Shown here: positions 10,153 through 51,332 of the stretch, in pieces
Layout: every line of letters begins with the position of its first letter
Position numbering within the stretch: the stretch's first letter is position 1
Assembly (NCBI RefSeq): GCF_003171715.1
Contig: NZ_QGHL01000004.1
Span: 372,001-436,000 of the forward strand
Source of the DNA: Novosphingobium meiothermophilum
GTDB taxonomy: Bacteria > Pseudomonadota > Alphaproteobacteria > Sphingomonadales > Sphingomonadaceae
DNA: 64,000 bases
Direction: 5' to 3'
The notes under the pieces: model-generated
Seen by the model: only the letters and a program-made list of their open reading frames with translations
Databases searched by the model: none
Told to the model about the DNA's origin: nothing
Program-made: the position numbers and the translations under genes

Positions 10153-10176
10153 GAAGGTGGCAGGAGTGGAGGGACT
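10153..10176. repeat. attL core, 24-base direct repeat
   Basis: It begins GAAGGTGGCAGGAG and is identical to 51309-51332. The repeat is the last 19 bases of tRNA-Trp (minus strand) plus five bases beyond. The left copy is a tRNA remnant without the rest of the gene. This defines the left junction; host sequence lies to its left. Confidence 0.92.
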
Positions 10177-10208
10177 GCAAAAATCTCTATTTTTCAGCGC
10201 CATATGTT

Positions 10209-10268
10209 GGCTAACCATGTAGAATATGCCCGAGCAAATCTGCGGCGTTCAGCAGTCATGGGCTAACC
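10209..10268 (+). other. Two GGCTAACC motifs, proposed integrase arm sites (left)
   Basis: GGCTAACC occurs at 10209-10216 and 10261-10268, 33 and 85 bases inside attL. The same octamer occurs twice just inside attR, all in the same orientation. Paired short repeats flanking both att cores are characteristic of arm-type binding sites of lambda-type integrases. Binding is inferred. Confidence 0.6.
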
Positions 10269-10350
10269 TTTTCAGCCACCTGTCGCAACTAAAGAGACTG
10301 TGCGGTCTCCTACGCCTGCGCGCGGCAGGCTTAAAAAGTGCAGGGGCCTG

Positions 10351-10612
10351 TCGGGAAGCGCATTACATTCATCACATTGGCGGATTTCTGCGGGTTTGAG
10401 GCATCACAAACGGCATTACCTCAACATCACATGGTAATGAAAACGCGACATTACATCTTAGAACGAAGAAATGGCGGATTTCTGCGGGTTTCAGAAAAGG
10501 TAAGGTCACATGTAAGAATAGGTGATGTTGTGAGCATCACATTTTAATGCCGTAAAAACAGTGATTTATAGTTCTGGAAGCTAGGATGTGATGAATGTAA
10601 TGCGCTTCCCGA
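10351..10612. repeat. 262-base module with perfect 27-base terminal inverted repeats
   Basis: Bases 10351-10377 (starting TCGGGAAGCGCATTAC) and 10586-10612 are exact inverse complements. The interior is AT-richer than its surroundings and holds two copies of GGCGGATTTCTGCGGGTTT (10379-10397, 10473-10491). It also has many CATTAC/GTAATG and ATCACA/TGTGAT words. It looks like a miniature inverted-repeat element or a regulator-binding region. No target-site duplication is evident. A 69-codon frame inside (10338-10547) is not convincing, and nothing clear is seen from 10613 to 10871. Confidence 0.6.
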
Positions 10613-10871
10613 TATGACCATTTCCAAGGCGGAAAGCCGCGCTTGATCGGCTGCATCCCGCCTCCTCGTTTTCGTTCGTAGGTCTGCAATTGAACGCACT
10701 TCTCGAAAGCGCGCAGGAAGATGCCGACGGCATCAAGTCGAGGGCGATGAGCTGGAGTGTGTCAATCTGCGCAATTCCAGTGCTTGAAGCGAGGAGGCGG
10801 GGCGTGGGGGCAAGCGCAGCGCGTGGGGTCGAGGCGTGGCACCTTCGCCAATGGGGTGTTAGGGTGGCAGG

Positions 10872-11246
10872 ATGAGCGCGTTCATGACCCTTGCGGCGGC
10901 CGCCAGCGTCTGTGTGGCGCGGGTTTCTGATGGTGACAGCCTGCGGCTTTGCGATGGCGAGCGGGTGCGTCTGCTTGGCATAGACGCACCTGAGTTGAGG
11001 GGATCATCGCGCTGCTCCCCTGCGGCGCTGGCGCGGCTGCGGAACAGCCGGAACCCGCCCTGGTGCGATCATGCCAGAGGCGAGCAGGCCCGCGCCGCGC
11101 TGGCGCGTTTCATTGCAGGTGGGCCGGTCCAGATCGAGCGGCGCGGCATTGATGCTTACGGACGCACGCTGGCGCGCGTCAAAGTCAACGGCATCGACGC
11201 TGGCCGCTGGATGATGGATCAAGGACTGGCACGCGAGTGGCGCTGA
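10872..11246 (+). CDS. Staphylococcal-nuclease-like (thermonuclease family) protein
   Basis: The protein has 124 residues. The family pattern is visible: RVSDGDSLRL, VRLLGIDAPELRG, GEQARAALARFI, RRGIDAYGRTLARV and the C-terminal WMMDQGLARE. The catalytic Asp/Arg/Glu positions of SNase (the IDAPE region and the YGR segment) appear to be present. A weak hydrophobic N-terminus (MTLAAAASVCVA) may export it. It is the first gene inside attL, just before the tracrRNA terminator. Whether it serves the CRISPR module or is independent cargo is unknown. Confidence 0.8.
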   Translation: MSAFMTLAAAASVCVARVSDGDSLRLCDGERVRLLGIDAPELRGSSRCSPAALARLRNSRNPPWCDHARGEQARAALARFIAGGPVQIERRGIDAYGRTLARVKVNGIDAGRWMMDQGLAREWR

Positions 11247-11250
11247 AACA

Positions 11251-11327
11251 AAAAAGCGAGGGCCGCAGCCCCCGCCTTATTTGGTGCAGTCAAGCTGCTT
11301 GTTAACAACTGGACCTGCGATTTCTGA
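11251..11327 (-). ncRNA. tracrRNA of the type II-C CRISPR system
   Basis: The minus strand carries an anti-repeat (about 11301-11327): TTCAGAAATCGC pairs with the repeat's GCGATTTCTGAA over 12 bases, a single A bulges, and GGTCCAG pairs with CTGGACC. The closing AAC at 11301-11303 pairs with the repeat's leading GTT. Downstream come a small stem, GCAG/CTGC (11286-11298), and a strong terminator hairpin (11256-11275) followed by six U residues. The predicted RNA is about 77 nt. It is divergent from cas9. The start is inferred from the promoter at 11335-11362. Confidence 0.85.
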
Positions 11328-11334
11328 AGAGTTC

Positions 11335-11362
11335 AATATACACGAAGTTTCTCAAGATACAA
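11335..11362 (-). promoter_or_regulatory. Promoter for tracrRNA
   Basis: On the minus strand, TTGTAT (11357-11362) and TATATT (11335-11340) are separated by 16 bases, a good sigma-70-type pair. Transcription would begin at about 11327, exactly where the anti-repeat starts. Confidence 0.7.
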
Positions 11363-11390
11363 TTGATTCGCGCACGTCGCTGCGTAATTT
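11363..11390 (+). promoter_or_regulatory. Promoter for cas9-cas1-cas2
   Basis: TTGATT (11363-11368) and TAATTT (11385-11390) are spaced by 16 bases. A ribosome site AAGGAG at 11400-11405 precedes the cas9 ATG. The -35 abuts the tracrRNA -35, so the two promoters are back to back and may compete or be co-regulated. Confidence 0.55.
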
Positions 11391-11410
11391 ATACGGCGAA
11401 AGGAGTTCCT

Positions 11411-14400
11411 ATGGAGAAGCGCCTGGGACTGGATATCGGGACAAACTCGATCGGTTGGTGCCTGTATGAAGGCGACAGCATTCTCGATATCGGCGTGAGA
11501 ATCTTCTCGGACGGACGAGACCCGAAATCCGGGGCAAGTCTTGCCGTTGATCGCCGGAATGCGCGTGCCATGCGTCGGCGCCGCGATCGTTATCTTGGTC
11601 GTCGATCCGCTCTCATCAAGGCGCTCAAAGCCCATGGCCTTTTCCCCGCAGAACAGGATGCGGCAAAGGCGCTCGAACGCGAGGATCCATACAGCTTGAG
11701 GGTTCGTGCGCTCGATCATCGGCTGGATCCGCATCAGATCGGCAGGGCGATCTTTCACCTGAACCAGCGTCGTGGTTTCCGCTCTAACCGCAAGGCCGAC
11801 AGGGTATTGGGCGATCAGGAAAGCGGACTGATTTCCACCGCCACTCGTGTTCTGGATGAGGCGATGGCCAAAAGCGGCGCGCGCACCCTCGGCGAGTTTC
11901 TCGCTTCACGCGACACCCGCAGAGTGCGCATGCGGCCTGACGTCAAGGGCTATGATTTCTATCCTAATCGGCAACACTATCTCGAAGAGTTCGAGAAGAT
12001 CTGGGACGCGCAATCGCAATACCACCCCGATCTGCTGAGCCAACAGGCGAAATCCGCCATCCACCGAATCATCTTTCACCAGCGCCCGCTTAAGCCGCAG
12101 GCTGTCGGCACATGCACTTTCGCCGGGTTACACGGCATCCCTGGCGATGAAACGCGCTTGCCCAAAGCCCATCCCCTGTTCCAGCAGCGCAGGCTTTACG
12201 AGGAAGTCAACCAGCTTGAGATCGTTTGTGCAAGCGCCCCTGCCCGCAAGCTGACGCGCGACGAACGCGATGCCCTCATCCTCAAGCTGCAGGACAAAAA
12301 GAAGGTCACTTTCTCCACCCTCGCGCGCACCATAAGATTGAAGGAGGGTGAACGCTTCAACAAGGAAAGCGAGAACCGGAAGGATCTGGCAGGCGACGAA
12401 GTGCGTGCCGAGATGAGTGACAAGACGCGCTTTGGCAGGCGATGGTTTCACCTTTCCCTTGATGAGCAGTGGTCTGTTATCGACCGCTTGCTGAACGAGG
12501 AAAGCACCGAAGACCTGCTGGCCTGGCTCGAAAAGGAATGGTCGCTGCCCAGCGATGTCGCCGAGGCAGTAGCCAATGCGCATCTGCCAGACGGCCATGG
12601 CAGGTTTGGCCTTACTGCCACCGTTCGCCTGTTGGAACACCTCAAGGCTGACGTGGTGACTTATGCCGAAGCAGCAAGACGTGCAGGCTTCCACCACAGC
12701 GACTTTCGCGATGGCGCGTGCTACGATGAGCTTCCCTACTACGGGGAGATACTTTCCCGCGAGATCGCGCCAGGCAAGGACGAATACGGCGATCCGCTGG
12801 AACGGCAATGGGGCAAGATTACCAATCCCACCGTTCACATCGGACTGAACCAGTTGCGACGGCTGATCAACGCGCTTGTCAGACGGCACGGTCGTCCCGA
12901 TTTCATTTTCGTCGAACTGGCGCGTGAGCTGAAGCTGAACGAAAAGCAGAAGGCCGACCACAAGCGCCGGATCAAGCAGACAACCGATGCCGCCCGCGCC
13001 AGGGCAGAAAAGCTGCGCGAGATCGGCCAGCGCGACAGTGGCAGCAACCGGATGCTCCTGCGCATATGGGAAGAACTGAATCCCTCCAATCCACTTGACC
13101 GGCGGTGCCCCTATTGCGCCGAACCCATTTCGATCGAGATGCTGATGAGCGGATCAGCCGATATCGATCACATTGTTCCCTATTCGCGTTGCCTTGATGA
13201 CAGCGCCGCGAACAAGGTTGTCGCGCATAACCACTGCAATCGGCAGAAAGGAAACCGCACCCCATGGGAACAATGGGGGCAAACGACGCGCTGGCCCTTG
13301 ATCCAGGAGCAGGTCGCTCGCATGCATCGGTCCAAGCAATGGCGCTTTGGCCCCGATGCGATGGAACGGGTGGACCGGGATGGTGGCTTCATCGCTCGCC
13401 AGCTTACCGACACCCAGTATCTTTCGCGCATTGCGGCGCAGTATCTTTCCGCTCTCTATACACCCGATGAGGGACGGCGGGTCTATGCCGTGACTGGCCG
13501 GTTGACGGCGATGCTCCGCCGACTGTGGGGACTGAATGACATCCTGCCCGATCACAACTGGGTTCTGAACCCGCACAGCAACGCACCCAAGAACCGGCTT
13601 GATCACCGCCACCATGCCATTGATGCTGCGGTGGTTGGTGCCACAACTCCGGCAATGATCCAGCAGGTTGCTAGAGCGGCAGCACGCGCGGAAGAGCAGG
13701 ATCTTGACCGGCTCTTTGCCGATCTGCCACCGCCATGGCCAGGCTTCCGCGAGGAACTGCAGGGCCGCATCATGGCCGCTGTTGTCAGTCACAAGCCGGA
13801 TCATGGGCGCAAGGGGCGTCCCCTTCCAGGGCGAGACAGCACCTCAGGCCGCCTGCACAACGATACGGCCTATGGCTTCACCGGAAGGCGCAATGCCAAG
13901 GGCATGCCGATCGTGGTCACGCGAAAGCCGCTGCTGGCCCTCAAGCCCGAAGACCTGACCGATCCGGAAAGAATACCCGACCCGGCACTGCAGGGCGCGT
14001 TGTTTGAAGCCACGCGGGGCGCAACCGGCAAGGACTTTGAAAAGGCGCTGCGCGACTTTTCGCGAAGGGACGGCCCTTATCAGGGCATCCGGCGCATACG
14101 GTTGACCGAAGCGCTCAACGTGATTCCGATCCGTGATCGAACAGGACACGCCTATAAGGGTGTAAAGGGCGATGCCAATGCGCGTTTCGATGTCTGGCGG
14201 CTTCCTGATGGCAAATGGATCACGCGGTGGAAGGACCGGGACGGCATCGAACATTCCGGCATAGTATCGCTGTTCGATGCACATCAGCCGAGCCAAGTCT
14301 ATCACCGCCCCCACCCTGCCGCGAAGAAGGTGCTTAGCCTGCGGCAGAATGATCTCGTTGCGGTTGAACACGATGGCGACCCAGGCAAGATCATGCGTGT

Positions 14401-14599
14401 GGTCAAGTTTTCTGCCAATGGCTCGATCACCTTCGCCCCACATAACGAAGCCGGGCCGCTAAAGACGCGTGATACCGACCCTGCCGATCCGTTCCGTTAT
14501 GTCACCACTGTTGCGAGCGGACTGAAGAAGATGCGCGCGCGGCAGGTGCGGATCGACGAACTAGGAAAAGTCCACGATCCGGGGCCGCGCGAAGACTGA
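11411..14599 (+). CDS. cas9: Type II-C CRISPR-associated endonuclease Cas9
   Basis: The protein has 1062 residues, the compact size of II-C Cas9. The start at 11411 follows AAGGAG and gives MEKRLGLDIGTNSIGW with RuvC-I aspartate D8. An arginine-rich bridge helix follows (RNARAMRRRRDRYLGRR). RuvC-II is FVELAREL with E502. The HNH domain has D586-H587 in DIDHIVPYSR, flanked by CPYC and HNHCN cysteine pairs. RuvC-III is RHHAIDAAVV with H735 and D738. All catalytic residues are present, so it should be an active RNA-guided nuclease. The C-terminal third is the PAM-interacting region. It lies within the prophage, upstream of cas1-cas2. Confidence 0.97.
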   Translation: MEKRLGLDIGTNSIGWCLYEGDSILDIGVRIFSDGRDPKSGASLAVDRRNARAMRRRRDRYLGRRSALIKALKAHGLFPAEQDAAKALEREDPYSLRVRALDHRLDPHQIGRAIFHLNQRRGFRSNRKADRVLGDQESGLISTATRVLDEAMAKSGARTLGEFLASRDTRRVRMRPDVKGYDFYPNRQHYLEEFEKIWDAQSQYHPDLLSQQAKSAIHRIIFHQRPLKPQAVGTCTFAGLHGIPGDETRLPKAHPLFQQRRLYEEVNQLEIVCASAPARKLTRDERDALILKLQDKKKVTFSTLARTIRLKEGERFNKESENRKDLAGDEVRAEMSDKTRFGRRWFHLSLDEQWSVIDRLLNEESTEDLLAWLEKEWSLPSDVAEAVANAHLPDGHGRFGLTATVRLLEHLKADVVTYAEAARRAGFHHSDFRDGACYDELPYYGEILSREIAPGKDEYGDPLERQWGKITNPTVHIGLNQLRRLINALVRRHGRPDFIFVELARELKLNEKQKADHKRRIKQTTDAARARAEKLREIGQRDSGSNRMLLRIWEELNPSNPLDRRCPYCAEPISIEMLMSGSADIDHIVPYSRCLDDSAANKVVAHNHCNRQKGNRTPWEQWGQTTRWPLIQEQVARMHRSKQWRFGPDAMERVDRDGGFIARQLTDTQYLSRIAAQYLSALYTPDEGRRVYAVTGRLTAMLRRLWGLNDILPDHNWVLNPHSNAPKNRLDHRHHAIDAAVVGATTPAMIQQVARAAARAEEQDLDRLFADLPPPWPGFREELQGRIMAAVVSHKPDHGRKGRPLPGRDSTSGRLHNDTAYGFTGRRNAKGMPIVVTRKPLLALKPEDLTDPERIPDPALQGALFEATRGATGKDFEKALRDFSRRDGPYQGIRRIRLTEALNVIPIRDRTGHAYKGVKGDANARFDVWRLPDGKWITRWKDRDGIEHSGIVSLFDAHQPSQVYHRPHPAAKKVLSLRQNDLVAVEHDGDPGKIMRVVKFSANGSITFAPHNEAGPLKTRDTDPADPFRYVTTVASGLKKMRARQVRIDELGKVHDPGPRED

Positions 14600-14672
14600 A
14601 CCGGGCTGCTTAACCGGATGCCAACCTTGGCACGGCATGATCGCGTCCTGCAACCATGCGGCGGAGCAGATC

Positions 14673-15632
14673 ATGGACCGTATAGTTGACATTACTACCG
14701 ACAACGTGCACCTACGCGCGCACCGCGGCTTCGTCATCGTCATGCTTGGCGAACGGGAACTCGGCCGGATCGCTCTGGATGATGTGGCGGCCCTGATTGT
14801 CCACGCTCACGGGGTAACATGGACCACCAGCCTCGCTGTGAGACTTGCCGAACGGGGCGCGGTCATGGTCCTGTGTGCCGCCAACCATGCCCCCGTGGCT
14901 TGGATCTTGCCGGTAGAAGGGCACCACGCCCAAAATGCTCGGATGCGGGCGCAGTGGAACGCTCCACTGCCGCTCAGCAAACAGGCATGGAAGGCGCTGG
15001 TCGTTGCCAAGATCGCTTGTCAGGCCAGCCTGCTATCGGCATGCGGGCGGCAGGAAGGCGAAGCCCTTGGCCTGCTAGCGCGGCGAGTGCGCTCTGGCGA
15101 TCCCGACAATCTTGAGGCTCAGGCTGCCCGTCGTTACTGGCCAGTCCTGATGGGGCCGGACTTCCGGCGGGATCGCTCATCAGGTGGTGTGAACGCCCTC
15201 CTGAACTATGGCTACACTGTGCTTCGCGCGGCCACGGCCCGTGCGGTCCTCGCTTCCGGGTTGCACCCCACAATCGGTGTGCATCACGCCAACCGGCTGA
15301 ATACCTTTGCGCTTGCCGATGACCTGATGGAACCTTTCAGACCCTTTGTCGATGCCGTGGTTCATCAACTGGTGAATGAAGGTCAGGACGTCCTCGATGG
15401 AGCGACAAAGGCCCGACTTGCTGCCCTGCTTGCAACTGATGTTGATCTTGCGGGAATGACATCGCCCCTCTCGGTCGCCATTCAGCGCCTGGCCCAATCG
15501 CTCGCGGCAAGTTTCGAACTGGGTCGGCTGTCCCTGGCGCTCTTCACACCGCCCACGGCACTCGGTTGGCGTGCGATTTCCACCCGTCATCCTGTCGGGG
15601 AATACGTGATGCCGGAAAGGCATGATGCGTGA
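14673..15632 (+). CDS. cas1: CRISPR adaptation integrase Cas1 (type II)
   Basis: The protein has 319 residues. I start at 14673 (MDRIVDITTDNVHLRAHRGF), preceded by GGAG; an upstream in-frame ATG at 14637 would add 12 residues. The acidic catalytic set is visible: E148 in NLEAQAARRYWP, a His in GVHHANRLN (H204/H205), and Asp in ALADDLMEPFRP. Cas1 with Cas2 inserts new spacers. It starts 73 bases after cas9 and overlaps cas2 by 11 bases. The presence of adaptation genes suggests the array can be updated. Confidence 0.96.
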   Translation: MDRIVDITTDNVHLRAHRGFVIVMLGERELGRIALDDVAALIVHAHGVTWTTSLAVRLAERGAVMVLCAANHAPVAWILPVEGHHAQNARMRAQWNAPLPLSKQAWKALVVAKIACQASLLSACGRQEGEALGLLARRVRSGDPDNLEAQAARRYWPVLMGPDFRRDRSSGGVNALLNYGYTVLRAATARAVLASGLHPTIGVHHANRLNTFALADDLMEPFRPFVDAVVHQLVNEGQDVLDGATKARLAALLATDVDLAGMTSPLSVAIQRLAQSLAASFELGRLSLALFTPPTALGWRAISTRHPVGEYVMPERHDA

Positions 15633-15969
15633 GGAAGGCTCCCAACTCAGCGGGTATCGGCTGATGTGGATACTGGTGATGTTCGATCTTCCGGTGCGAA
15701 CGCGTGAAGAGGCCCGCGCGGCGACACAGTTCCGCGAGTATCTGCTTGATGAAGGCTTCGAGATGAGCCAGCTTTCTATCTACGCAAGGTTCTGCTCTGG
15801 AAAAGAACAGTTCGAAGCCCATGTGCGGCGAATCGAGTCAAACCTGCCGGAAAAAGGCGACGTGCACATTCTCAGCTTCACCGACCGACAATATGAGAAC
15901 ATCATCCGCTTCAATGGCCAAAGGCGTCGGCGCCAACGCCAAAATCCTGCTCAACTTGCACTATTCTGA
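15622..15969 (+). CDS. cas2: CRISPR adaptation protein Cas2
   Basis: The protein has 115 residues with the ferredoxin-like core MWILVMFDLPVRTREEARAA, a strand around SIYARFC, and the basic tail QRRRRQRQNPAQLALF. It overlaps cas1, indicating translational coupling. There is no csn2 or cas4 next to it, which with the Cas9 size defines subtype II-C. The array begins 72 bases after its stop. Confidence 0.95.
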   Translation: MMREEGSQLSGYRLMWILVMFDLPVRTREEARAATQFREYLLDEGFEMSQLSIYARFCSGKEQFEAHVRRIESNLPEKGDVHILSFTDRQYENIIRFNGQRRRRQRQNPAQLALF

Positions 15970-16041
15970 CGATTCGCTGCGGGATTTGCACTACTGGATG
16001 CCGATTTTTCTCTTTCCCGTCAAAGAGTTGTATCGACATCC

Positions 16042-18057
16042 AGCATAGCAGTTCAGAAATCGCGGTCCAGCGGCAACGGCGCTGACCTTTCATCAGTGCG
16101 AGATGATAGCATAGCAGTTCAGAAATCGCGGTCCAGCGGCAACGCCTGCGCGAACTGGGCCTTTGGGACGCGGAGCATAGCAGTTCAGAAATCGCGGTCC
16201 AGCGGCAACGCAGAAGGTGAGCGCCCAGATCTGATCGGCAGCATAGCAGTTCAGAAATCGCGGTCCAGCGGCAACCGAACTCCGCCCCGTCTTGTTGCAG
16301 CTGGTAGCATAGCAGTTCAGAAATCGCGGTCCAGCGGCAACTGTCGCGCGAGGGCACCTACATCGACGCCAAGCATAGCAGTTCAGAAATCGCGGTCCAG
16401 CGGCAACGGCGAACTGTTCGGCGTCCTTCCTGATCTGAGCATAGCAGTTCAGAAATCGCGGTCCAGCGGCAACGCGCCGCACGCGATGCGAATGGCATCG
16501 ATCAGCATAGCAGTTCAGAAATCGCGGTCCAGCGGCAACCGCCTGTGCCATCGGCAAAGCTCTCCACCAAGCATAGCAGTTCAGAAATCGCGGTCCAGCG
16601 GCAACCGTGGTGGCATTGTTGCCCAAGTCATAGAAGCATAGCAGTTCAGAAATCGCGGTCCAGCGGCAACATCGGAACAGATGCGTCAACACGCTGCACC
16701 AGCATAGCAGTTCAGAAATCGCGGTCCAGCGGCAACTGAAGTGCCCCATGGGCCTGCATGGCGTGGAGCATAGCAGTTCAGAAATCGCGGTCCAGCGGCA
16801 ACTCAGCACGCCCGTGCTGTCCAGATCACCAAAGCATAGCAGTTCAGAAATCGCGGTCCAGCGGCAACTGGCGATGTCGGCTTCGGCCTGCTTCGCGTAG
16901 CATAGCAGTTCAGAAATCGCGGTCCAGCGGCAACGGCAGGAAAAGTTGGCCAAGGAGCAGGAGCAGCATAGCAGTTCAGAAATCGCGGTCCAGCGGCAAC
17001 TCTCGCCGAAACCTTGCTGCATGACCGGCTTAGCATAGCAGTTCAGAAATCGCGGTCCAGCGGCAACGCACGAATGGCCGCACGCTACGCGGCTTGGAGC
17101 ATAGCAGTTCAGAAATCGCGGTCCAGCGGCAACGATCCGATCTATGTGGAGTGATGGCGTGACAGCATAGCAGTTCAGAAATCGCGGTCCAGCGGCAACT
17201 GCGTGGCTGAAACTGTCGAGGATCAGCACAGCATAGCAGTTCAGAAATCGCGGTCCAGCGGCAACTGTCGCCGAAACCTTGCTGCATGACCGGCTAGCAT
17301 AGCAGTTCAGAAATCGCGGTCCAGCGGCAACTGTGTCTATCAAGACTGTCGGAACTTTATAAGCATAGCAGTTCAGAAATCGCGGTCCAGCGGCAACGAA
17401 AGAACTGCATCATGACAATCCATTCAAAGCATAGCAGTTCAGAAATCGCGGTCCAGCGGCAACTTGGCATTGCCGGAAACTCCAAGCCGCCCGAGCATAG
17501 CAGTTCAGAAATCGCGGTCCAGCGGCAACTTGTCGCGGGTCATATCAATGCCCGATGGAAGCATAGCAGTTCAGAAATCGCGGTCCAGCGGCAACAAGCG
17601 CAGCTCCGGAGCGTGCTGGAGGATAAGCATAGCAGTTCAGAAATCGCGGTCCAGCGGCAACTGCTTGGGGATTGCCGGTGATGAGGCCCACAGCATAGCA
17701 GTTCAGAAATCGCGGTCCAGCGGCAACTCCACCTGATAGCGGCGGATGGCATCGGCTAGCATAGCAGTTCAGAAATCGCGGTCCAGCGGCAACTGATGCA
17801 GGCACCCTGTCCGGTTCCGGCTAAGCATAGCAGTTCAGAAATCGCGGTCCAGCGGCAACGGCCGGAGGTGAGGAAACCATCGCGGCCGTAGCATAGCAGT
17901 TCAGAAATCGCGGTCCAGCGGCAACGTTTCGTCGGCAGAAAGATAGACCGACTGGAGCATAGCAGTTCAGAAATCGCGGTCCAGCGGCAACTGCAGCGGC
18001 CAATGCAGCGTCCAGTGCAGCAGCATAGCAGTTCAGAAATCGCGGTCCAGCGGCAAC
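16042..18057 (-). CRISPR. CRISPR array, 31 repeats of 36 bases and 30 spacers
   Basis: All 31 repeats read identically on the plus strand, AGCATAGCAGTTCAGAAATC then GCGGTCCAGCGGCAAC. Spacers are 30 bases, except spacer 9 (29) and spacer 15 (31). In the crRNA sense the repeat starts GTTGCCGCTGG on the minus strand, matching the tracrRNA anti-repeat, so the array is expressed leftward toward cas2. The repeat ends TGCTATGCT, an extended -10-like sequence as in other II-C arrays that carry a promoter in every repeat. The lack of any degenerate repeat indicates a young or actively maintained array. Spacers 1, 3 and 7 resemble genes of this prophage. Confidence 0.98.
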
Positions 18058-18146
18058 CTGGCGGCTCCCAAGTGGTGGCGTCCACTTCGACCCGAACGTC
18101 TGATTATGGCCGGTTGATGGCGGGGGGCGCCCCCCGCGACCTTTCG
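18058..18146 (-). promoter_or_regulatory. Candidate CRISPR leader and palindromic terminator
   Basis: By the repeat orientation, the leader should lie here. The segment contains a perfect self-complementary GCGGGGGGCGCCCCCCGC at about 18120-18137, which could terminate dam transcription before it runs into the array. No clear promoter is seen. Confidence 0.4.
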
Positions 18147-18956
18147 TCAGTTCGAGATGATCACCTCGCCGGCTATTTTCGAATTGTCCATGCCGCCCAC
18201 CTGATAACGCACTTTCGCCTCTTCGATCGCGAAGCCATCGAATATTCGCCGCACTGCTGGATGATCGTTGAGCGACAGGATGAACCGCCCGCGAATGGCT
18301 CGCAGCTTGTCGGCCATCACCTCGAACTCATCGCGCCCGAACATGTCGCGGCCATAGTCGGTCTCGCAGCCGTAGTAGGGCGGATCTAGATAGAACAGAG
18401 TCCCCGGACGGTCATACCGATCGATGAACTCCCGCCATGGCAGCCGCTCGATGATGACCCCGGCGAGCCTCTCATGGACCGCCTCGATCATTGGCGCGAT
18501 CTTGGTTACATCGAAGCGCGCGCCGCTGCCCAGCACAACGCCGAAGCCGCGCCCGTTCACTTTCCCGCCAAAGGCAAGCCGCTGGAGATAAAGGAACCGC
18601 GCCGAACGCTGCATGTCGGTCAGAGATGCCGGGTTCATGGCCAAAAGCTTCTCAAAGCCCGCGCGGCTCGTGATCTGGAAGCGCATCATATCAAGGAATG
18701 GCACGTAATGGTGCTGCACCACCCGGAAGAATGTCGCCACGTCCTCTGACCAGTCATTAATGACCTCACCTTTCGGCCTGCGATCGCGCCGCAGGAAAAC
18801 GCCGCCCATCCCTACAAAGACTTCAGCGTAGGTCTGGTGGGGCACGGCGTTGATCCGCTGCACCAGGCGCCGGGCCAGATTGCGCTTTCCGCCGATATAG
18901 GGCGCAAGCGGCCTGACCGGCGCTACTGGCAAAAGGTCTGGATACTCTTTCAACAT
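18147..18956 (-). CDS. Phage DNA adenine methyltransferase, D12 (Dam) class
   Basis: The protein has 269 residues. The SAM-binding motif is PYIGGK at residues 19-24 and the catalytic motif is DPPYYG from D191. The C-terminus is GEVIISN. It probably methylates adenine in phage or host DNA, protecting against restriction or tuning expression. It lies between the array and the portal gene on the minus strand, separated from the portal by about 170 bases that include a GC-rich hairpin (CCCCCGCCTTGGCGGGGG). The final codons and stop are the match site for CRISPR spacer 1. Confidence 0.88.
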   Translation of the reverse strand: MLKEYPDLLPVAPVRPLAPYIGGKRNLARRLVQRINAVPHQTYAEVFVGMGGVFLRRDRRPKGEVINDWSEDVATFFRVVQHHYVPFLDMMRFQITSRAGFEKLLAMNPASLTDMQRSARFLYLQRLAFGGKVNGRGFGVVLGSGARFDVTKIAPMIEAVHERLAGVIIERLPWREFIDRYDRPGTLFYLDPPYYGCETDYGRDMFGRDEFEVMADKLRAIRGRFILSLNDHPAVRRIFDGFAIEEAKVRYQVGGMDNSKIAGEVIISN

Positions 18957-28855: not shown

Positions 28856-28862
28856 AGTGAAC

Positions 28863-39212: not shown

Positions 39213-39248
39213 ACCGGCGGCCCTGCCGCGCTGCATCGGAGCGAAGCC

Positions 39249-41015: not shown

Positions 41016-41046
41016 CCCATGGCCGAAGAACAGGAGGCATAACCCC

Positions 41047-41430
41047 ATGCAGCAGCAGCTCGCCGCCATCGGCATGTTCGCCTTCACCACCAGCAGCGCG
41101 CTCTTCGATGCGCTGGATCGCAGCCGCGAATGGCGGCACGAACGCACCGACCGTTTCGGCGCCATGGCCGCCAGCCAGTTCACCGGCCCCGGTGCGGACA
41201 GGATCACCCTTTCCGGGCGGCTCGTGCCCGAAGTGCTGGGCCGCTTCGGCGCGCTGGAAACGCTGGCCGAAATGGCCGAAACCGGCGATGCCTGGCCGTT
41301 CATGGATGGGCAGGGCCGCGTGCTGGGCCATTTCACGATTGACCGGATTTCCGAACGCAAGGACAACCTGGTGGAAGATGGCCGCGCCCGCGTGAACGAG
41401 TTCACCATCGAACTGACGCGGGTGGCCTGA
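41047..41430 (+). CDS. U: Tail terminator protein U
   Basis: The protein has 127 residues. MQQQLAAIGMFAFTTSSALF, REWRHERTDRFGA and DRITLSGRLVPEVLGRF match gpU, which caps the tail tube. Its stop overlaps the D start. Confidence 0.92.
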   Translation: MQQQLAAIGMFAFTTSSALFDALDRSREWRHERTDRFGAMAASQFTGPGADRITLSGRLVPEVLGRFGALETLAEMAETGDAWPFMDGQGRVLGHFTIDRISERKDNLVEDGRARVNEFTIELTRVA

Positions 41431-42488
41431 TGGCCAGCATTCCTTTCGAAGCCCTGCCGCCTGACACGCGCCCGCAATCCGGTTCGGGCTATGTCCAGCC
41501 CAAGGCCGCGTGGCGCGTCATGCTGGGCGCGGATGACCTGACGCAGAAGCTGGCCCCCGTGCTGGTTTCGCTGCGCCTTTCCGAACGCGATGGCGAAGAG
41601 GCCGATCAGCTTGAAATCGTGCTGGATGATGCGCAGGGCCGCGTGGCCATTCCGCCCGAAGGCGCGCGGCTGCGCGTGTGGCTGGGCTGGGAACGCGGCA
41701 CCGATGTTGTGCCGGGCCTGATCGACAAGGGCAGCTTCGTGGTGGATGAAGCCAGCTGGAGCGGCCCGCCCGATCGCATCACCCTGACGGCGCGCAGCGC
41801 CGATCTGGCCGAAAGCTTCCGCAAGCGGCAGAACCGGGTGTGGAAGGATACCACCATCGGCGCCATCGTGGCCGCGATTGCCGCCGATCATGGCCTGATC
41901 GCCAGGGTGCATCCCGATCTTTCGGGCATTGCCATTGCCGTGGCCGAACAGGCGGGGAAAAGCCCGATGCAGTTCCTGCGCGATCTGGCCCGCCGCCACG
42001 ATGCCGCCGCCACCACCAAGGCGGGTTGCCTGATCTTTTCGCCCAAGGGCGCGGCCACCACGCCTTCGGGCGCGGCCATCCCCGCGCTCACCCTCACCCG
42101 CAGCCGGTGCAGCAGCGCGGAATGGCGGCGCGCCGCGCGCGAACGCGCGCAGGACGGGGCCGAAGCGCAATGGCACGATGCCGATCAGGGCCAGCGCCGC
42201 ACCGCCAGCACCGGCGGAAAGAACCCCAAGCGGCTGAAAAAGACCTATGCCACCCAGGCCGATGCCCGCGCGGCGGCCGAGGCGGAAAGCAAACGGCTGA
42301 AACGCGCCGCCGCCACGCTTTCGGCCAGCCTTGCCTGGGGCGATCCGCGCCTTTCGCCGGGGGTGCAGGTGGCCGCCAGTGGCTTCAAGCCCCAGATCGA
42401 CCAGACCCGCTGGCTGATTTCCAGCGCCGAACACACGATGGACGCAGGCGGCCTGAAAACCCGGATCGAGATGGAAGTGGCGGCTTAG
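41430..42488 (+). CDS. D: Tail hub/late control protein D
   Basis: The protein has 352 residues. LRLSERDGEEADQLEIVLDD, FVVDEASWSGPPDRITLTAR and KSPMQFLRDLARRHDA are typical of gpD, a gp27-like hub protein. It is the last gene of the rightward structural operon and converges on a minus-strand lipoprotein gene. Confidence 0.92.
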   Translation: MASIPFEALPPDTRPQSGSGYVQPKAAWRVMLGADDLTQKLAPVLVSLRLSERDGEEADQLEIVLDDAQGRVAIPPEGARLRVWLGWERGTDVVPGLIDKGSFVVDEASWSGPPDRITLTARSADLAESFRKRQNRVWKDTTIGAIVAAIAADHGLIARVHPDLSGIAIAVAEQAGKSPMQFLRDLARRHDAAATTKAGCLIFSPKGAATTPSGAAIPALTLTRSRCSSAEWRRAARERAQDGAEAQWHDADQGQRRTASTGGKNPKRLKKTYATQADARAAAEAESKRLKRAAATLSASLAWGDPRLSPGVQVAASGFKPQIDQTRWLISSAEHTMDAGGLKTRIEMEVAA

Positions 42489-42928: not shown

Positions 42929-43618
42929 TCAGATCTTCCGCATCACCGCGACGACCCGGCCGATAAGCGTAAGTTCGCCGTCATAGGCCACCTCTTCGGG
43001 CACGCTGGGATTGTCGCTCATGATGCGCACGCCGCCATCCTTCGTGGGGCGCAGGCGCTTGATCATGCCCAGCCCGCAAAAGGTTATCGCCCAGATCTGA
43101 TCGGCCATGGTCAGCCGGTCGATCGAGGTATCGATGATCAGCACATCGCCGGGGGCAAGCGTCGGCTGCATCGAGTCGCCCACGCCTTGCGCGAAGAACA
43201 GCTTCGAGGCGGGCGAGGCCGTGAACTGGCGCAGCCATCCGGCCGGAAAGAACTGGGTCACTTCCTCGACCACCATGTCGAGGTAGGACGCGCCCATCCC
43301 ATAGGCGAGATCGATCTGCCGCACTGGCACAAGGCCCGCTTCCATGGCCAGATCATCGAAGCTGGCTGCTGCGGGCGATGCCCGCCTGTCCGGCCCTGTG
43401 CCAGCCTCATCGGCATTCATCGCCTCGGCTTCGCCCGAAAGGTATTCCGGAGAGCATTTCAGCGCCTTGGCAATGGCATAGATATGCGCGGTCTCGCGCG
43501 CATGGCCGGTGGCCAGCTTGTTGACCATCGAGGAACTGATGTTCGCCGCGCGCGCGAGCGCGGACTGGCTCAATCCGCGCAATTGCATTGCCGCCTTTAG
43601 GCGTTCCGGCACGATCAT
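42929..43618 (-). CDS. CI-like phage repressor with S24 peptidase domain
   Basis: The protein has 229 residues. The N-terminal helix-turn-helix is ERLKAAMQLRGLSQSALARA, followed by NISSSMVNKLATGH. The C-terminal LexA/CI-type domain has VGDSMQPTL (catalytic serine) and GMIKRLRP (catalytic lysine). It is expected to maintain lysogeny and to self-cleave after DNA damage. It is divergent from the Cro-like gene across an operator region. The segment ADQIWAITFC (43076-43105) is the near-match of CRISPR spacer 3. Confidence 0.9.
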   Translation of the reverse strand: MIVPERLKAAMQLRGLSQSALARAANISSSMVNKLATGHARETAHIYAIAKALKCSPEYLSGEAEAMNADEAGTGPDRRASPAAASFDDLAMEAGLVPVRQIDLAYGMGASYLDMVVEEVTQFFPAGWLRQFTASPASKLFFAQGVGDSMQPTLAPGDVLIIDTSIDRLTMADQIWAITFCGLGMIKRLRPTKDGGVRIMSDNPSVPEEVAYDGELTLIGRVVAVMRKI

Positions 43619-44482: not shown

Positions 44483-44904
44483 CCATGCGCCCTGCCACCC
44501 CTCCGGCCCCATCCTCGGCCCCTTCTTCGGCCCAGTCCGGGCCGCTGCCCAACGATATTGCCGACCGGCCCTATCGTTCGGGCCATGTCAGGTGCCCGCA
44601 CTGCGAATGCGTGGGCCTGCGCCGGTCATCGCGCGCCGTGACCCCGCAGCACCGCCAGATCTACTACCAGTGCAGCAACGTGCTGTGCGGCCATACCTGG
44701 CTGGCCACGCTGTCCTATGAATACGGCATCGTGCCCAGCGCCATCCCCGATCCGCGCGTAACCCTGCCGCTGCGGCCCATGCCGCGCCAGCAGGTGCTGG
44801 AACTGCTGCGCGAAGCCGATGCCGATCAGCCCGATCTCTTTCCGGCCCAGGGCGGCCATGATGGCGCTGCCGATCCCGCGCCGCCGGGCGCCGACACGAG
44901 CTGA
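44479..44904 (+). CDS. ogr: Ogr/Delta-family late transcription activator
   Basis: The protein has 141 residues. The zinc-finger signature is RCPHC, a spacer with HRQIYYQCSNVLCGHTWLA, and SYEYGI. Ogr/Delta proteins bind TGT...ACA dyads at about -55 of late promoters and contact RNA polymerase. Here the gene is in the early operon rather than after D, so late expression is probably tied directly to early transcription. Extra Pro/Ala-rich ends make it longer than P2 Ogr (72 residues). Confidence 0.85.
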   Translation: MTMRPATPPAPSSAPSSAQSGPLPNDIADRPYRSGHVRCPHCECVGLRRSSRAVTPQHRQIYYQCSNVLCGHTWLATLSYEYGIVPSAIPDPRVTLPLRPMPRQQVLELLREADADQPDLFPAQGGHDGAADPAPPGADTS

Positions 44905-45740: not shown

Positions 45741-48470
45741 ATGCGCGAAGATATCCGCACAGAAGTTCTGGCCTCTATCCGGCGCGATTACCATTTTGCC
45801 GAACCGCGCGGCGAATGGCTCCAGAAGGGAAAATGCCCCAATTGCGGCCGCAAGGAGCTGTTCACCAGCGTCAGGAAGCCCTGGGTGCTGCGATGCAGCC
45901 GCCAGAACCGCTGCGGGTGGGAAGGCGAGGTGCGCGACCTTTACCCCGAAATCTTCGACAACTGGTCAAACCGCCACGAGGCGACCGAAGCCAATCCCCA
46001 TGCCGCTGCCGATGCCTATCTCCTGCACGCGCGCGGGCTTGATCTGCGCCTGCTGCGCGGCGCCTATACCCAGGAAAGCTACTTCGACCGGGACAAGAAC
46101 ATCGCCAGCGCCACGGTGCGCTTCGATCTGCCCGGCGGTTCATGGTGGGAAAGGCTGATCGATCAGCCCGGCCGGTTCGATCGCAAGGCCCGCTTCGCCC
46201 CCGGAAAATCCTATTCCGGGCAGGTGTGGATACCGCGTGATGTCACACTGGATCAGTTGAGCGGCGCAAAGGAAATCTGGATCGCCGAAGGCATCTTCGA
46301 TTGCAGCGCGCTGTGGCAGGCGTTCAGCGGATCGGAACTGGCAGAAAAGGGCCTGTTTGCCGTTTCGGCCATGTCGGTGAGCAACTGGCCGGAAAAGTTC
46401 CTTGATGAGCTTCGCAAGGCCATTGCCAATGGCCCTGCGCCCACGCACCAGCCCCGGCTGATCTTCGCCTTCGATGTGGGCAAGGCCGGCGCCGATTACA
46501 GCCGAAAATACGTGAAGCGCGCGCGCGATGAAGGCTGGGAGGCCAGCGCGGCCCAGCCCCGCCCGGAAGGCGAGGACGACAAGCTCGACTGGAACAACCT
46601 GCTTGTCCGCGACCGGCTGACAGAAAAGCACCTGGCCGAATACCGCGCCAATGGCGAAGTGCTGGTGGCCACCGATGCCTTCGAAAAGGCGTTCAAGCTG
46701 TGGCAGCAGAAGGGCGGCAATGTCGGCCAGTTTCCCTTCATTTTCAATTCCGAAACCTACTGGGCCGAGTTCAGCCACCGCAAGATCGATGAAGTCGTCA
46801 AGGAGCTTCAGGAAAACCCGGCCTACGAAGGAAAAGACCCGAGGGAAGTAAGGCAGGAAGCCGCCGAGCAGGTGGGCACGATCAAGCGGATCTGCACGGC
46901 CGCTTTCCGCACCCTCTATTTCCAGCGAAACCCCGCCACCGAGGAAAGCCACTACTACATCCGCATCGATTTCCCCACCGATCGGCACGAGGTGAAGGCC
47001 CCCTTTTCCGGCGGCGCGCTTTCGGCCTCGGCCGAGTTCAAGAAGCGGCTGATCTCGGTGGCGCCAGGCGCGCTATGGCTGGGCAGCGGCGAACAGCTTG
47101 ACCGGATCGTGGGCACCCAGACCAGGCGGATCAAGACGGTCGAAACGCTCGATTTCACCGGTTACGACCGCAAGCGCGAAGTCTATGTCCTGGGCGATTA
47201 TGCCGTGCGGCGGGGCCGGGTCTTCCGCCTGAACGACGAGGATTTCTTCGATTTCGGCGATTGCGCGCTGAAACTCGCCACGACCGAGCGCCTGCTGGAA
47301 ATCGAATACGACGCCGAAGCCCGCCCGGTGAGCTGGTTTCCCGTGCTGATCGAAGCCTTCGGCATGAACGGCCTTGTCACCTGCGCCTATTGGATCATGT
47401 CGCTCTTTGCCGAACAGATCCGCGCATCGACCAAGAGCCTTGCTTTCCTCGAAATGTCGGGCCTGCCCGGCACGGGCAAATCCACCGTGCTGGAGTTCCT
47501 CTGGAAAACGGCGGGGCGTGAAAACTACGAAGGTTTCGATCCCACCAAAGGCACGGCGGCCGCCATCGCACGAAATCTGGGCAAGGTATCGAACCTGCCT
47601 GTCGTGCTGATCGAGGGGGACCGTAACGAAGCGGTGCACCATTCGAAGAAGTTCGAATGGGAGGAACTCAAAAGCCTCTACAACGGCCGCGCCACCCGTT
47701 CGCGCGGGGTCAAGAACGGCGGCATGGAAACCTTCGAGCCGCTCTTTCGCGGATCGATCATCATTGCCCAGAACGATCCCGTCAGCGCCTCGCCCGCGGT
47801 GCTCGAACGCATCATGTCGCTGCACTTCGACAAGTCGGGCTTTTCCGAAGCCACCCGCGCCGCAGCCGAAAGGCTGGAACGCTGGCCCGCCGAAGAGCTT
47901 TCGGGCTTCATCCTTTTCGCGCTGCGCCACGAAGAACAGTTCATGAAGGCCTGGGCCGATGCCTATGCCCGCTACCAGGGCGAACTGCAGGCCGCATCGG
48001 GCGTCAACAATATCCGCCTGCTGCGCAACCATGCCCAGCTTGCCGCCGCGCTCACCGCCATGCGCCAGTTCCTGCCCGTCAGCGATGGCCTCCACGCGGC
48101 GGGGCTGAAGTTCATTGCCGAGATGACCGCCGCCCGCCAGCGCGTGGTGTCGAGCGAACATCCGGTGGTCGAAAAGTTCTGGCAGATTTTCGATTACCTG
48201 GTCGAGATCGAGACCGAGAGCCAGCGCGAGGAACGGCCACTTAATAACCATCGAAAGGCCGATGAATACATCGCCGTCAGCCTGCCCCAGTTCTTCGAAC
48301 GCTGCCGCGCGCACGGGCAGGTGCCGCCCACCGAAGACGATCTGCGCCGCCACCTGAAAACCTCCAAGGGCCGCAAGTTCGTGGCCTGCAAGCCGGTCAA
48401 CGCGCCCGGCGGAAAGCATTTCTACTGCTGGGTATTCACCCGCCCCCTCTCCGAAACCGCGATCATCTGA
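45741..48470 (+). CDS. Phage DNA primase-helicase
   Basis: The protein has 909 residues. A CHC2-like zinc-binding start (C32-x2-C35, then CSRQNRCGW) is followed by a Toprim-like region (EIWIAEGIFDCSALWQ, LIFAFDVGKAGADY). A helicase domain has Walker A GLPGTGKST (from G574) and an acidic Walker B region (VVLIEGDRNE). It primes and unwinds phage DNA. P2 itself uses the rolling-circle nickase A; no gpA homologue is seen, so replication here is probably theta type or satellite-like. Confidence 0.85.
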   Translation: MREDIRTEVLASIRRDYHFAEPRGEWLQKGKCPNCGRKELFTSVRKPWVLRCSRQNRCGWEGEVRDLYPEIFDNWSNRHEATEANPHAAADAYLLHARGLDLRLLRGAYTQESYFDRDKNIASATVRFDLPGGSWWERLIDQPGRFDRKARFAPGKSYSGQVWIPRDVTLDQLSGAKEIWIAEGIFDCSALWQAFSGSELAEKGLFAVSAMSVSNWPEKFLDELRKAIANGPAPTHQPRLIFAFDVGKAGADYSRKYVKRARDEGWEASAAQPRPEGEDDKLDWNNLLVRDRLTEKHLAEYRANGEVLVATDAFEKAFKLWQQKGGNVGQFPFIFNSETYWAEFSHRKIDEVVKELQENPAYEGKDPREVRQEAAEQVGTIKRICTAAFRTLYFQRNPATEESHYYIRIDFPTDRHEVKAPFSGGALSASAEFKKRLISVAPGALWLGSGEQLDRIVGTQTRRIKTVETLDFTGYDRKREVYVLGDYAVRRGRVFRLNDEDFFDFGDCALKLATTERLLEIEYDAEARPVSWFPVLIEAFGMNGLVTCAYWIMSLFAEQIRASTKSLAFLEMSGLPGTGKSTVLEFLWKTAGRENYEGFDPTKGTAAAIARNLGKVSNLPVVLIEGDRNEAVHHSKKFEWEELKSLYNGRATRSRGVKNGGMETFEPLFRGSIIIAQNDPVSASPAVLERIMSLHFDKSGFSEATRAAAERLERWPAEELSGFILFALRHEEQFMKAWADAYARYQGELQAASGVNNIRLLRNHAQLAAALTAMRQFLPVSDGLHAAGLKFIAEMTAARQRVVSSEHPVVEKFWQIFDYLVEIETESQREERPLNNHRKADEYIAVSLPQFFERCRAHGQVPPTEDDLRRHLKTSKGRKFVACKPVNAPGGKHFYCWVFTRPLSETAII

Positions 48471-49320: not shown

Positions 49321-49427
49321 TCTGGAAGCATATCTCGCCGCCATCGCGCGAAACCCTCCTGGTTATCGCGCTGCACCTGGGCGGCGCTGCACTCGGCATG
49401 ATGATCGGATGGCTCCACCATGGCTGA
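49317..49427 (+). CDS. Very small membrane protein, 36 aa
   Basis: The frame runs ATG to TGA with four- and eight-base overlaps on each side. It encodes one membrane helix (TLLVIALHLGGAALGMMIGW). The tight coupling supports translation. Confidence 0.5.
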   Translation: MIWKHISPPSRETLLVIALHLGGAALGMMIGWLHHG

Positions 49428-49692
49428 TGATCGCGCGCGCCCTGCCCGCTCACCCGTGGCACGCTGGATGCCGGTGCCCGATCAGGTGCGCCGTCTGGCC
49501 GAACTCGATGCCATCCGCCTCGAACGCCCGCTTACCGCCGCTGAACAGGCCGAAGCCGATACGCTCACCAACCGGGCCTATCACCGCCAGTGGGGCGCCC
49601 ATCAGCGCGAGCGCGAGGCGATGATCGAACAGCGGCTTGCGCGGCAGGCTGCGCGGAAATGCGCCAGCGGGATGATCGGCGATGCCGCGTAA
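49420..49692 (+). CDS. Hypothetical early protein, 90 aa
   Basis: The protein has a Pro/Arg-rich start (MADDRARPARSPVARWMPVP), then a helical region (VRRLAELDAIRLERPLTAAE) and an Arg/Gln-rich end. It overlaps the genes on both sides. The function is unknown. Confidence 0.55.
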   Translation: MADDRARPARSPVARWMPVPDQVRRLAELDAIRLERPLTAAEQAEADTLTNRAYHRQWGAHQREREAMIEQRLARQAARKCASGMIGDAA

Positions 49693-49927
49693 GCCAACCA
49701 GTCTGGCCGAACGCTACCGCACCCACCGCGCGGCCTTCGAACTCGCGCAGCAATTGGGCTGCACCCCGAAGGAAGCCGAAGCCGAAATTGCCCGCCGCGC
49801 CGCGCGCCAGCGCTGGCTGCGAACCCTCGCCCGGCTCGAAGCCCTCAAGAACCGGCGCGGCACGCCCCAGCCCATCCACGGTGCAGACCCAGAACCGCCC
49901 CCACAGCCCTGGTGGCTGCGCGATTGA
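49682..49927 (+). CDS. Small basic hypothetical protein, 81 aa
   Basis: MPRKPTSLAERYRTHRAAFE is followed by LAQQLGCTPKEAEAEIARR, which has a helix-turn-helix-like spacing. A DNA-binding or excisionase role is possible but unproven. Confidence 0.5.
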   Translation: MPRKPTSLAERYRTHRAAFELAQQLGCTPKEAEAEIARRAARQRWLRTLARLEALKNRRGTPQPIHGADPEPPPQPWWLRD

Positions 49928-49977
49928 CCACCCACCCGCGATCCCATGCAAGTATCTGCTATGAAAGGACATCCGGC

Positions 49978-50193
49978 ATGAGCGCCCGCGCACGCATCCT
50001 CCAGGCCGATGTGACCCGCGCCGTCAGGGGCGCGCGCGATGGCGGCGTCGATATAGGCAGCATCCGCATCATGCCCGATGGCGAGATCGTGATAGTCTCG
50101 AAAGCCTGCGCCGAGTCGTTCCGCCTCAGCGCAACAGCAAACCCGCTCGACGAAGTTCTGCTCCATGCCGCGCAAGGAAAAACTGCCCGCTAA
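49978..50193 (+). CDS. Small hypothetical protein before the integrase, 71 aa
   Basis: AAAGGA lies nine bases before the ATG at 49978. The sequence is RARILQADVTRAVRGARDGG, then VDIGSIRIMPDGEIVIVSKA. It overlaps the integrase by 29 bases. Its size and position fit a directionality factor or a small regulator, but no family is recognised. Confidence 0.55.
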   Translation: MSARARILQADVTRAVRGARDGGVDIGSIRIMPDGEIVIVSKACAESFRLSATANPLDEVLLHAAQGKTAR

Positions 50194-51289
50194 CGTCTCC
50201 AGCTTCGTCGATCGCCATGGCAAACGGCGCTACCGCTGGCGCAAGGCGGGCAGGCAGCACTATTTCAAGGCCCACCCCAATTCGGCCGAGGGCCGGGCCG
50301 AGCTTGAGGCGTTCCTTGCCGACCTGCCCTTGCGGGCCACATCACAGCCTGCCCACGGCACCGTCGCCTGGGCCGCTGCCCGCTATTTCGCCTCGGCCAC
50401 CTTTCGCGGCGGAAAGTCCGCCCAGACCGAGCGCACCGCCCGGCTGATCCTCAACAGGTTCATTGGCGAATACGGCAAGTATCGCATCGCCGACTGGCGC
50501 TTCGATCACATCGAAGCCGTGCTCATGAAAGCGGCGCAGAAGCGTCCGGATGAAAAGGGCCGGATGATTGGCGGCCCCAGTGCGGCCAACAACCTGCGGC
50601 GCGAACTCAAGGGCCTGTTCGATTATGCCATCAAGGTCCTTCATCTTGATCGCCCCAATCCGGTCGATCAGGCCGCCGCGATTGCCGTGCCGCGCCGGGG
50701 CTTCCACACCTGGACCGATGCCGAGATCGAACAGTATCGTGATTTCTGGCCGCTCGGCACCAAGGCGCGTCTGGCGCTTGAGATATTCCTCTGGACGGCC
50801 CAACGCCGCGGCGATGCCTCGAAGTTCGGCCACCGGCACGTGGTGGACGGACAGATAGAGGTCACGCCCGCGAAAACCGGAAACTCCACTGGCGTAACCG
50901 TCTGGCTCCCCGCCGCGCCCCAGCTCCTCGAAGCCATCGCAGCAATGCCGGTCACGGGCACCGAGACCTTCCTCGTCACCGATTACGGTAAACCCTTCTC
51001 GGTCGCCGGGCTGGGCAACAAGATGCGCGAATGGTGCACCAGGGCTGGCTTGCCCCACTGCTCGGCCCACGGCCTGCGCAAAGCCGCCGCCAGAAGAAGC
51101 GCCGAAACCGGCGCCACCAATCAGGAACTGAAGGCCCTCGGAGGCTGGACCACCGACCGCCAGGTGGCGATCTACACGCAGGACGCCAACAAAAAAGCCC
51201 TCGCAAAGAGGGCCATGACACCGGTAATCGAACTCGATCTGGCTAACCGCTCAAGAAAGCGTCAGGCTAACCCGCCTCCAAACACCTGA
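50165..51289 (+). CDS. int: Tyrosine-recombinase integrase
   Basis: The protein has 374 residues. Catalytic residues are visible: R214 (TAQRRGD), K237 (PAKTG), H302-x-x-R305 (AHGLRKAA), W328 (GGWTTDRQ) and Y337 (IYTQDA). The N-terminal part holds arm- and core-binding domains. It sits against attR and tRNA-Trp, so it is the enzyme that integrates the element. Two proposed arm sites lie inside its last codons. Confidence 0.95.
   Translation: MPRKEKLPANVSSFVDRHGKRRYRWRKAGRQHYFKAHPNSAEGRAELEAFLADLPLRATSQPAHGTVAWAAARYFASATFRGGKSAQTERTARLILNRFIGEYGKYRIADWRFDHIEAVLMKAAQKRPDEKGRMIGGPSAANNLRRELKGLFDYAIKVLHLDRPNPVDQAAAIAVPRRGFHTWTDAEIEQYRDFWPLGTKARLALEIFLWTAQRRGDASKFGHRHVVDGQIEVTPAKTGNSTGVTVWLPAAPQLLEAIAAMPVTGTETFLVTDYGKPFSVAGLGNKMREWCTRAGLPHCSAHGLRKAAARRSAETGATNQELKALGGWTTDRQVAIYTQDANKKALAKRAMTPVIELDLANRSRKRQANPPPNT
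51241..51272 (+). other. Two GGCTAACC motifs, proposed integrase arm sites (right)
   Basis: Copies lie at 51241-51248 and 51265-51272, 61 and 37 bases from the attR core and inside the end of int. They match the two copies near attL. Confidence 0.6.
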
Positions 51290-51308
51290 AAAACATAAGT
51301 TTTCATAA

Positions 51309-51332
51309 GAAGGTGGCAGGAGTGGAGGGACT
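51309..51332. repeat. attR core, 24-base direct repeat
   Basis: It is identical to 10153-10176 and overlaps the 3' end of tRNA-Trp, whose sequence is kept intact. The flanking bases differ on both sides, so 24 bases is the full shared length. Confidence 0.92.

Follow-up and report, generated by a model that had tools for sequence, protein, structure and literature searches.

The question raised by the locus described here is how a temperate phage could carry an immune system directed against its own relatives and still be spared by it. The locus lies in Novosphingobium meiothermophilum (assembly GCF_003171715.1, contig NZ_QGHL01000004.1, positions 372,001 to 436,000); this whole stretch of 64,000 nucleotides is called the window in the following, and all coordinates refer to it. 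It contains a 41-kb P2-like prophage, integrated at a tRNA-Trp gene and bounded by 24-bp direct repeats, and inside the prophage a 6.9-kb block (11247-18139) that encodes a CRISPR-Cas (clustered regularly interspaced short palindromic repeats and associated proteins) system of type II-C. An answer is suggested by spacer 1 of this system which, as judged from the DNA, reads the block's own vacant insertion site, a site that the block itself splits.

The insertion site of the block and spacer 1

The block separates two phage genes, an SNase-like nuclease gene on the left (10872-11246, plus strand; PF00565) and a Dam-type (D12-class) adenine methyltransferase gene, dam, on the right (18147-18956, minus strand; phrog_56, PF02086). 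When the flanks are joined as they would be without the block (11244-11246 to 18138-18140), the joined sequence matches the cas2-proximal spacer 1 (16078-16107, minus strand) at 28 of 30 bases, with the SNase end, a short gap and the dam end following each other along the spacer. The 14 bases on the side of the protospacer-adjacent motif (PAM) are identical to the joined flanks. Over the same joins, each of the other 29 spacers has at least 8 mismatches on either strand, and 20 shuffled versions of spacer 1 put through the same search have at least 11. Cas9 cuts 3 nt from the PAM, and the insertion point was found to be 5 bp from the cut expected on this basis.

The comparison with relatives places the block inside the phage, as an insert between two phage genes, because relatives carry SNase and dam side by side without cas genes. 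In locus L163, from a Novosphingobium metagenome-assembled genome, the stop codons of the two genes overlap, and in L053, a contig from IMG/VR, the genes are 7 bases apart; the SNase homologues are 65% and 77% identical, respectively, to the one in the window. L163 also has 22 of the 24 bases of the attachment (att) core, close to secE and nusG, and the same left-end repeats, while its tRNA end is outside the stretch examined. No match to cas genes was seen in any of the 15 P2-like viral loci L052-L066, nor in any of the 34 P2-like loci represented among L139-L173, the latter in a comparison that displayed chosen genes only; several of these loci are truncated at dam or short of it, and a few prophages are present in duplicate, from two sources. 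Nor was this cas block found on a chromosome without the phage among 298 genomes of the family, which are a draw from a larger group, and 195 of the genus. The earlier note had put the block between attL and the portal gene, and it does lie within that interval, but it is dam and not the portal gene that adjoins the array, and SNase stands between attL and cas9.

The 24-bp repeat GAAGGTGGCAGGAGTGGAGGGACT occurs in exact copies at 10153-10176 (attL core) and 51309-51332 (attR core), the latter overlapping the 3' end of tRNA-Trp (51314-51389, minus strand; ARAGORN, Rfam), and the tyrosine integrase gene (50165-51289, plus strand; PF00589, phrog_1) abuts attR, so that both the repeat and the integrase at the far end are as previously described, and as expected for a P2-like temperate phage. 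By simple arithmetic, an exact 24-base repeat would be expected by chance in about one of tens of thousands of 64-kb stretches. A third att copy was not found inside the prophage, the best internal match having 8 mismatches in 24, and hence there is no second att pair that could set the cas genes apart from the phage. The vacant chromosomal site is seen in genome G108, whose chromosome runs without interruption from the same outer genes through tRNA-Trp to secE and nusG.

The CRISPR-Cas block and its spacers

The gene set is that of type II-C: cas9 (11411-14599, 1062 amino acids), cas1 (14673-15632) and cas2 (15625-15969), all on the plus strand and recognized by both Pfam and PADLOC, with neither csn2 nor cas4. 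Apart from these genes, the gene calls contain only a 44-amino-acid open reading frame overlapping the end of cas2. On the minus strand between SNase and cas9, a trans-activating CRISPR RNA (tracrRNA) is predicted (11247-11350, running from ca 11350 to 11247 with an uncertain start), which fits the type in sequence and fold, with an exact 12-base anti-repeat core, a nexus and a terminator hairpin, and the nexus-terminator fold is stable (z-score of -3.21). Rfam at gathering scores gave no match to it, as only two tRNAs were matched. In an alignment of eight Cas9 proteins, including the present one, D8, E502, H587 and the HHxxD motif are invariant, and the Cas1 motifs are present, in line with the earlier statement that the catalytic residues are kept. 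The full set with 30 spacers in a P2-like prophage, which was the central claim of that note, is thereby borne out by Pfam, PADLOC and the relatives. From these genes we infer functions in adaptation, interference and, for the phage, excision.

The array (16042-18057) consists of 31 identical repeats and 30 spacers. Its transcription is taken to be on the minus strand, judging from the direction of the repeat and the tracrRNA, which makes the cas2 side, with spacer 1, the 3' end of the array. Being the 3'-most, it is probably the newest spacer; II-C arrays acquire spacers at the 3' end while the first, oldest repeat decays, according to the relevant parts of PMC12638026 and PMC12080349. Among 17 other arrays that could be parsed, the decayed end repeat is cas-distal in nine (L033, L034, L035, L042, L043, L048, L049, L050 and L191), although the decay is weak in L042 (2 mismatches) and L035 has a second, internal broken repeat. 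At the 5' edge of the array, a perfect GC palindrome lacking a T-run was noticed by eye (18120-18137) and is a possible insulator. Spacers 15 and 19 (17001-17031 and 17266-17295) are nearly identical, differing at just 2 positions, as though two related targets had been sampled.

Searching the phage body with all spacers gives five matches at up to 8 mismatches, compared to 0.18 per shuffled set (50 sets). These are spacer 1 (at dam), spacer 3 (16210-16239, minus strand), which matches the phage's own repressor gene with 3 mismatches, spacer 7 (16474-16503, minus strand), which matches the tail region at 31000 with 6, and spacers 13 and 26, whose matches are weak (7 and 8 mismatches) and are not relied on. 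The 12 PAM-side bases hold all three mismatches of spacer 3 and five of the six of spacer 7, and self-cutting at these two sites is therefore unlikely. A second match of spacer 3, with 5 mismatches, lies in the repressor region of L166 from Novosphingobium capsulatum and is shared by the IMG/VR locus L180, apparently a copy of the L166 prophage.

A probable barrier against sister phages and its alternatives

We consider it likely that the block gives adaptive protection against superinfection by block-free sister phages, the carrier being spared by the insertion. The prophage of a lysogen would express Cas9, the dual RNA and Cas1-Cas2, and Cas9, guided to the vacant junction by spacer 1, to the repressor gene by spacer 3 or to the tail genes by spacer 7, would cut incoming P2-like relatives, which would protect both host and prophage. 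A sister phage would have been the source of spacer 1, which covers a position that invariably distinguishes the carrier from relatives without the block. The carrier itself would not be cut at spacer 1, because the block splits the site; at the carrier's other near-matches, the mismatches fall mostly towards the PAM. Since superinfecting phages of the same immunity should already be held off by the phage repressor, the cover added by the CRISPR system would concern phages with other repressors. If so, the split target would be a simple answer to the problem of attacking sister phages without self-killing.

A number of observations weigh against this reading. The block was found at the SNase-dam site in no other genome or viral contig searched, and is known from a single genome. 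A perfect protospacer was not found either in the genus genomes or by pattern searches of IMG/VR, which require exact matches: spacers 1 and 3 have no match at up to 3 mismatches in the 194 other genomes of the genus, and in IMG/VR the patterns of spacer 1 led to one real relative junction, that of L053 with 6 mismatches, those of spacer 3 to one relative with 5, and those of spacers 15 and 19 to their own array only. One further junction-pattern match, L176, was discarded, as the 601 bases inspected of it look by eye unrelated to SNase-dam. The 3' flanks of the matches differ (ACTCGC, AGGGGC, GGGCTG, GGGCAA and GATCCA), and the matches are too few and too imperfect for a PAM consensus. The newest rank of spacer 1 is also uncertain, because type II-C may hold groups with differing acquisition ends (a point raised in part of PMC12638026) and because the broken repeat of L036 is the one towards cas2. 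Finally, the chance of a spacer over the junction is 1.3-2.5% if all 30 spacers are drawn evenly from such phages, an estimate that assumes even sampling over the phage.

The alternative that survives best is ordinary cargo immunity, in which a CRISPR system was picked up in a cargo slot of a P2-like phage and serves for defence in general, the junction spacer being a chance acquisition of no particular function. We regard it as quite possible, and it overlaps the barrier reading, from which it differs only in the role given to spacer 1. The slot on the dam side is indeed varied in relatives, L167 from Sphingomonas sp. IC081 having a TIR-domain protein there (14124-16694) and L166 a 772-amino-acid protein with no Pfam or PADLOC match, and for 25 of the 30 spacers the phage that carries them offers no match at up to 8 mismatches. 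Matches to P2-like phages are, moreover, common in chromosomal arrays: summed over 15 other II-C arrays of the family, 28 of 333 spacers match P2-like loci at up to 7 mismatches, with ca 6.7 expected from shuffling, and this counts against the barrier as well. The array of the prophage has 4 of 30 (shuffled 0), or 3 of 30 when its own phage is left out. As chromosomal arrays show a similar rate, P2-like targeting is ruled out as a mark of phage-borne arrays; it is a general feature of the II-C systems of the family, and the special part is the junction spacer. It is here that the cargo explanation is weakest, since spacer 1 covers the insertion point, for which the small chance given above applies even when every spacer is phage-derived.

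A bolder extension is that the block might be a natural RNA-guided homing element. In a mixed infection, the vacant site of a sister phage would be cut, and repair from the carrier would copy the 6.9-kb block into it. Homing endonuclease genes split their own recognition site, which protects the carrier, and the present block likewise sits within its recognition site (28 of 30 bases). They act, however, through fixed-site proteins, while here a guide RNA would be used, and homing is a proposal; there is one occurrence, and none of the other genomes and viral contigs searched shares the element at this site. We hold homing to be rather unlikely. If true, the block would be a gene drive evolved by a phage. 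The locus also opens natural Cas9 homing between phages to direct laboratory tests.

Another scenario is capture at the cut site, where a CRISPR locus elsewhere that already held spacer 1 against this phage lineage cut the SNase-dam junction and repair pasted that locus into the break, yielding an escape phage equipped with its former attacker. The short distance between the insertion point and the expected cut would fit this course of events, as would the edges, which share only 2 bp (GA, leaving the limits of the block ambiguous by that much) with no direct repeat of at least 9 bp between the block ends, and also the GC content, which is 0.588 in the block and 0.652 in the rest of the phage. 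We nevertheless judge it quite unlikely: spacer 1 has 2 mismatches to the block's own flanks, and a donor locus was not found in the 298 family and 195 genus genomes.

That the locus is a misassembly, or that phage and CRISPR alike are dead remnants, is very unlikely. The element is known from one genome assembly, but the match of spacer 1 points independently to a time when SNase lay next to dam, the genes for head, tail, lysis, control and integration are open, the catalytic residues are kept and the 31 repeats have stayed identical. Hardly credible at all is a separate island or chromosomal locus merely lying between the att repeats through nested integration or recombination, which the lower GC content of the block and the absence of P2-like structural genes near 24 of 26 related cas loci with context would favour, but which is already contradicted by the phage genes on both sides, adjacent in relatives, and by the lack of an internal att copy.

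Related systems and other features of the prophage

We now turn to the relatives of the Cas9 protein. Matches are present in 27 of the 298 family genomes and 17 of the 195 genus genomes (counting the present genome and remote matches), with the best other Cas9 at 74-75% identity in the former set and 64% in the latter. Context of up to 20 kb, in some cases cut by contig ends, was inspected for 26 of the 41 matching genomes other than the present one; the other 15 have fragments or remote matches. P2-like structural genes are found near cas in two of the 26, G032 and G342. The former (L031, G032:C13:42179-62178) has a Cas9 of 74% identity, which is one of the two nearest, a 20-repeat array and a Doc-like toxin, and its cas block is flanked by an integrase fragment by tRNA-Asn on one side and by the P2 U and D genes on the other. 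In the latter (L195, G342:C1:3446016-3466015), cas9-cas1-cas2, with a Cas9 of 62% identity, and a 52-repeat array have the P2 genes R, S, J and I and a dam fragment on one side and W and D on the other, and portal, terminase and capsid genes were not matched within 80 kb. Both elements look decayed, and the gene content of G342 suggests a defective or tailocin-like element with CRISPR. Together, they suggest that this Cas9 group has entered P2-like elements more than once.

Some other candidates were considered and rejected. G014, whose Cas9 has 75% identity, shows no P2-like gene match in 20 kb, and L192 was not counted: an SNase-like gene (35%) lies close to its Cas9, yet P2-like structural genes were not seen there. 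A single-query Cas9 search of IMG/VR gave no relative, and the three Cas9 matches in the phage collection are each below 27% identity. Searching IMG/VR with a Cas9 alignment gave one relative, the Mu-like contig L205 (33%), in which the match (9750-13036) starts at residue 24, beside a phage repressor; most likely, a Mu-like phage inserted into a host II-C cas9 and thereby removed its N-terminus.

Among known systems, the A-Q hotspot of P2-like phages in Escherichia coli is similar: on the circular map, the present block too lies between the replication gene and the portal gene, in a place where the defence cargo varies. What is described there are short defence systems, larger ones such as CRISPR-Cas being absent from the P2 and P4 families according to the relevant part of PMC9122126, whereas the cargo here is a II-C set with adaptation genes. 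Phages below 200 kb rarely encode CRISPR, and ICP1 is the only such phage whose CRISPR has been studied experimentally for antidefence, as stated in a section of a 2024 review (PMC11656645). The type I-F system of ICP1 also combines adaptation genes with an array, but it targets the host-borne anti-phage island PLE, while the present system is II-C, belongs to an integrated phage and has its identifiable matches in sister phages. The mini-arrays of the archaeal viruses SPV1 and SPV2, covered in the same part of that review, are likewise spacers that a virus carries against close relatives sharing its cell, and they use host Cas proteins, unlike the block, which carries its own cas genes. Of II-C systems on integrating elements, the one that we found to come closest is CampyICE1 (PMC8743540), likewise aimed at competitors; it is an integrative and conjugative element with Cas9 as its sole Cas protein and plasmid targets, in contrast to the cas1 and cas2 genes and the P2-like phage matches of the present block.

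The earlier note did not recognize such a phage as described, and our search of the open-access literature, by titles and the starts of abstracts, likewise gave no comparable P2-like phage with CRISPR and no self-site spacer. What appears to be new is the match of spacer 1 to the vacant insertion site of its own block, and with it a 41-kb prophage that holds a full, probably adaptive Cas9 set in a block splitting its own target.

An IMG/VR record of the same prophage, L051, starts at cas2 (window position 15622 onwards) and should, from its length, end at the integrase stop codon. Its automated boundary has thus dropped cas9 and cas1, and such trimming may hide other phage-borne CRISPR sets.

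The remaining genes make up a P2-type set, with homologues of the contractile sheath, portal, terminase and capsid, and those for head, tail, lysis, repressor, late activator, replication and integrase are all open frames. On the minus strand to the right of dam follow the genes for the portal protein (P2 Q; 19129-20208, phrog_68) and the terminase large subunit (P2 P; 20201-22096). The terminase has 336 matching records in the phage collection, every one below 60% identity. The plus strand then encodes scaffold, capsid, terminase small subunit, head completion, tail X, and tail terminator and completion proteins (22276-27723) and, beyond the endolysin gene (30077-30565, minus strand; phrog_894), the baseplate, fibre, spike, sheath, tape measure, and U and D tail proteins (33058-42488). 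The S24/CI-type repressor gene (42929-43528, minus strand; PF00717, phrog_4) contains the spacer 3 match at 43076-43105. It is followed on the plus strand by a match to a family of transcriptional regulators (44638-44904; phrog_603), presumably an Ogr/Delta-like late activator, and by a replication protein or primase in place of the P2 gene A (45741-48470; phrog_1139).

Three smaller features of the prophage can be added. Close to attL, near-identical 23-bp repeats (10378 and 10472) lie in a long imperfect inverted repeat (10338-10612) that resembles the left end of L163, and these are possibly integrase arm sites or an origin. A toxin-antitoxin-like pair at 28857-29443 consists of a Gp49-like protein and an HI1420-type antidote. 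Finally, the tail region at 31688-32443 has a repeat with a period of 54 nt in ten overlapping copies.

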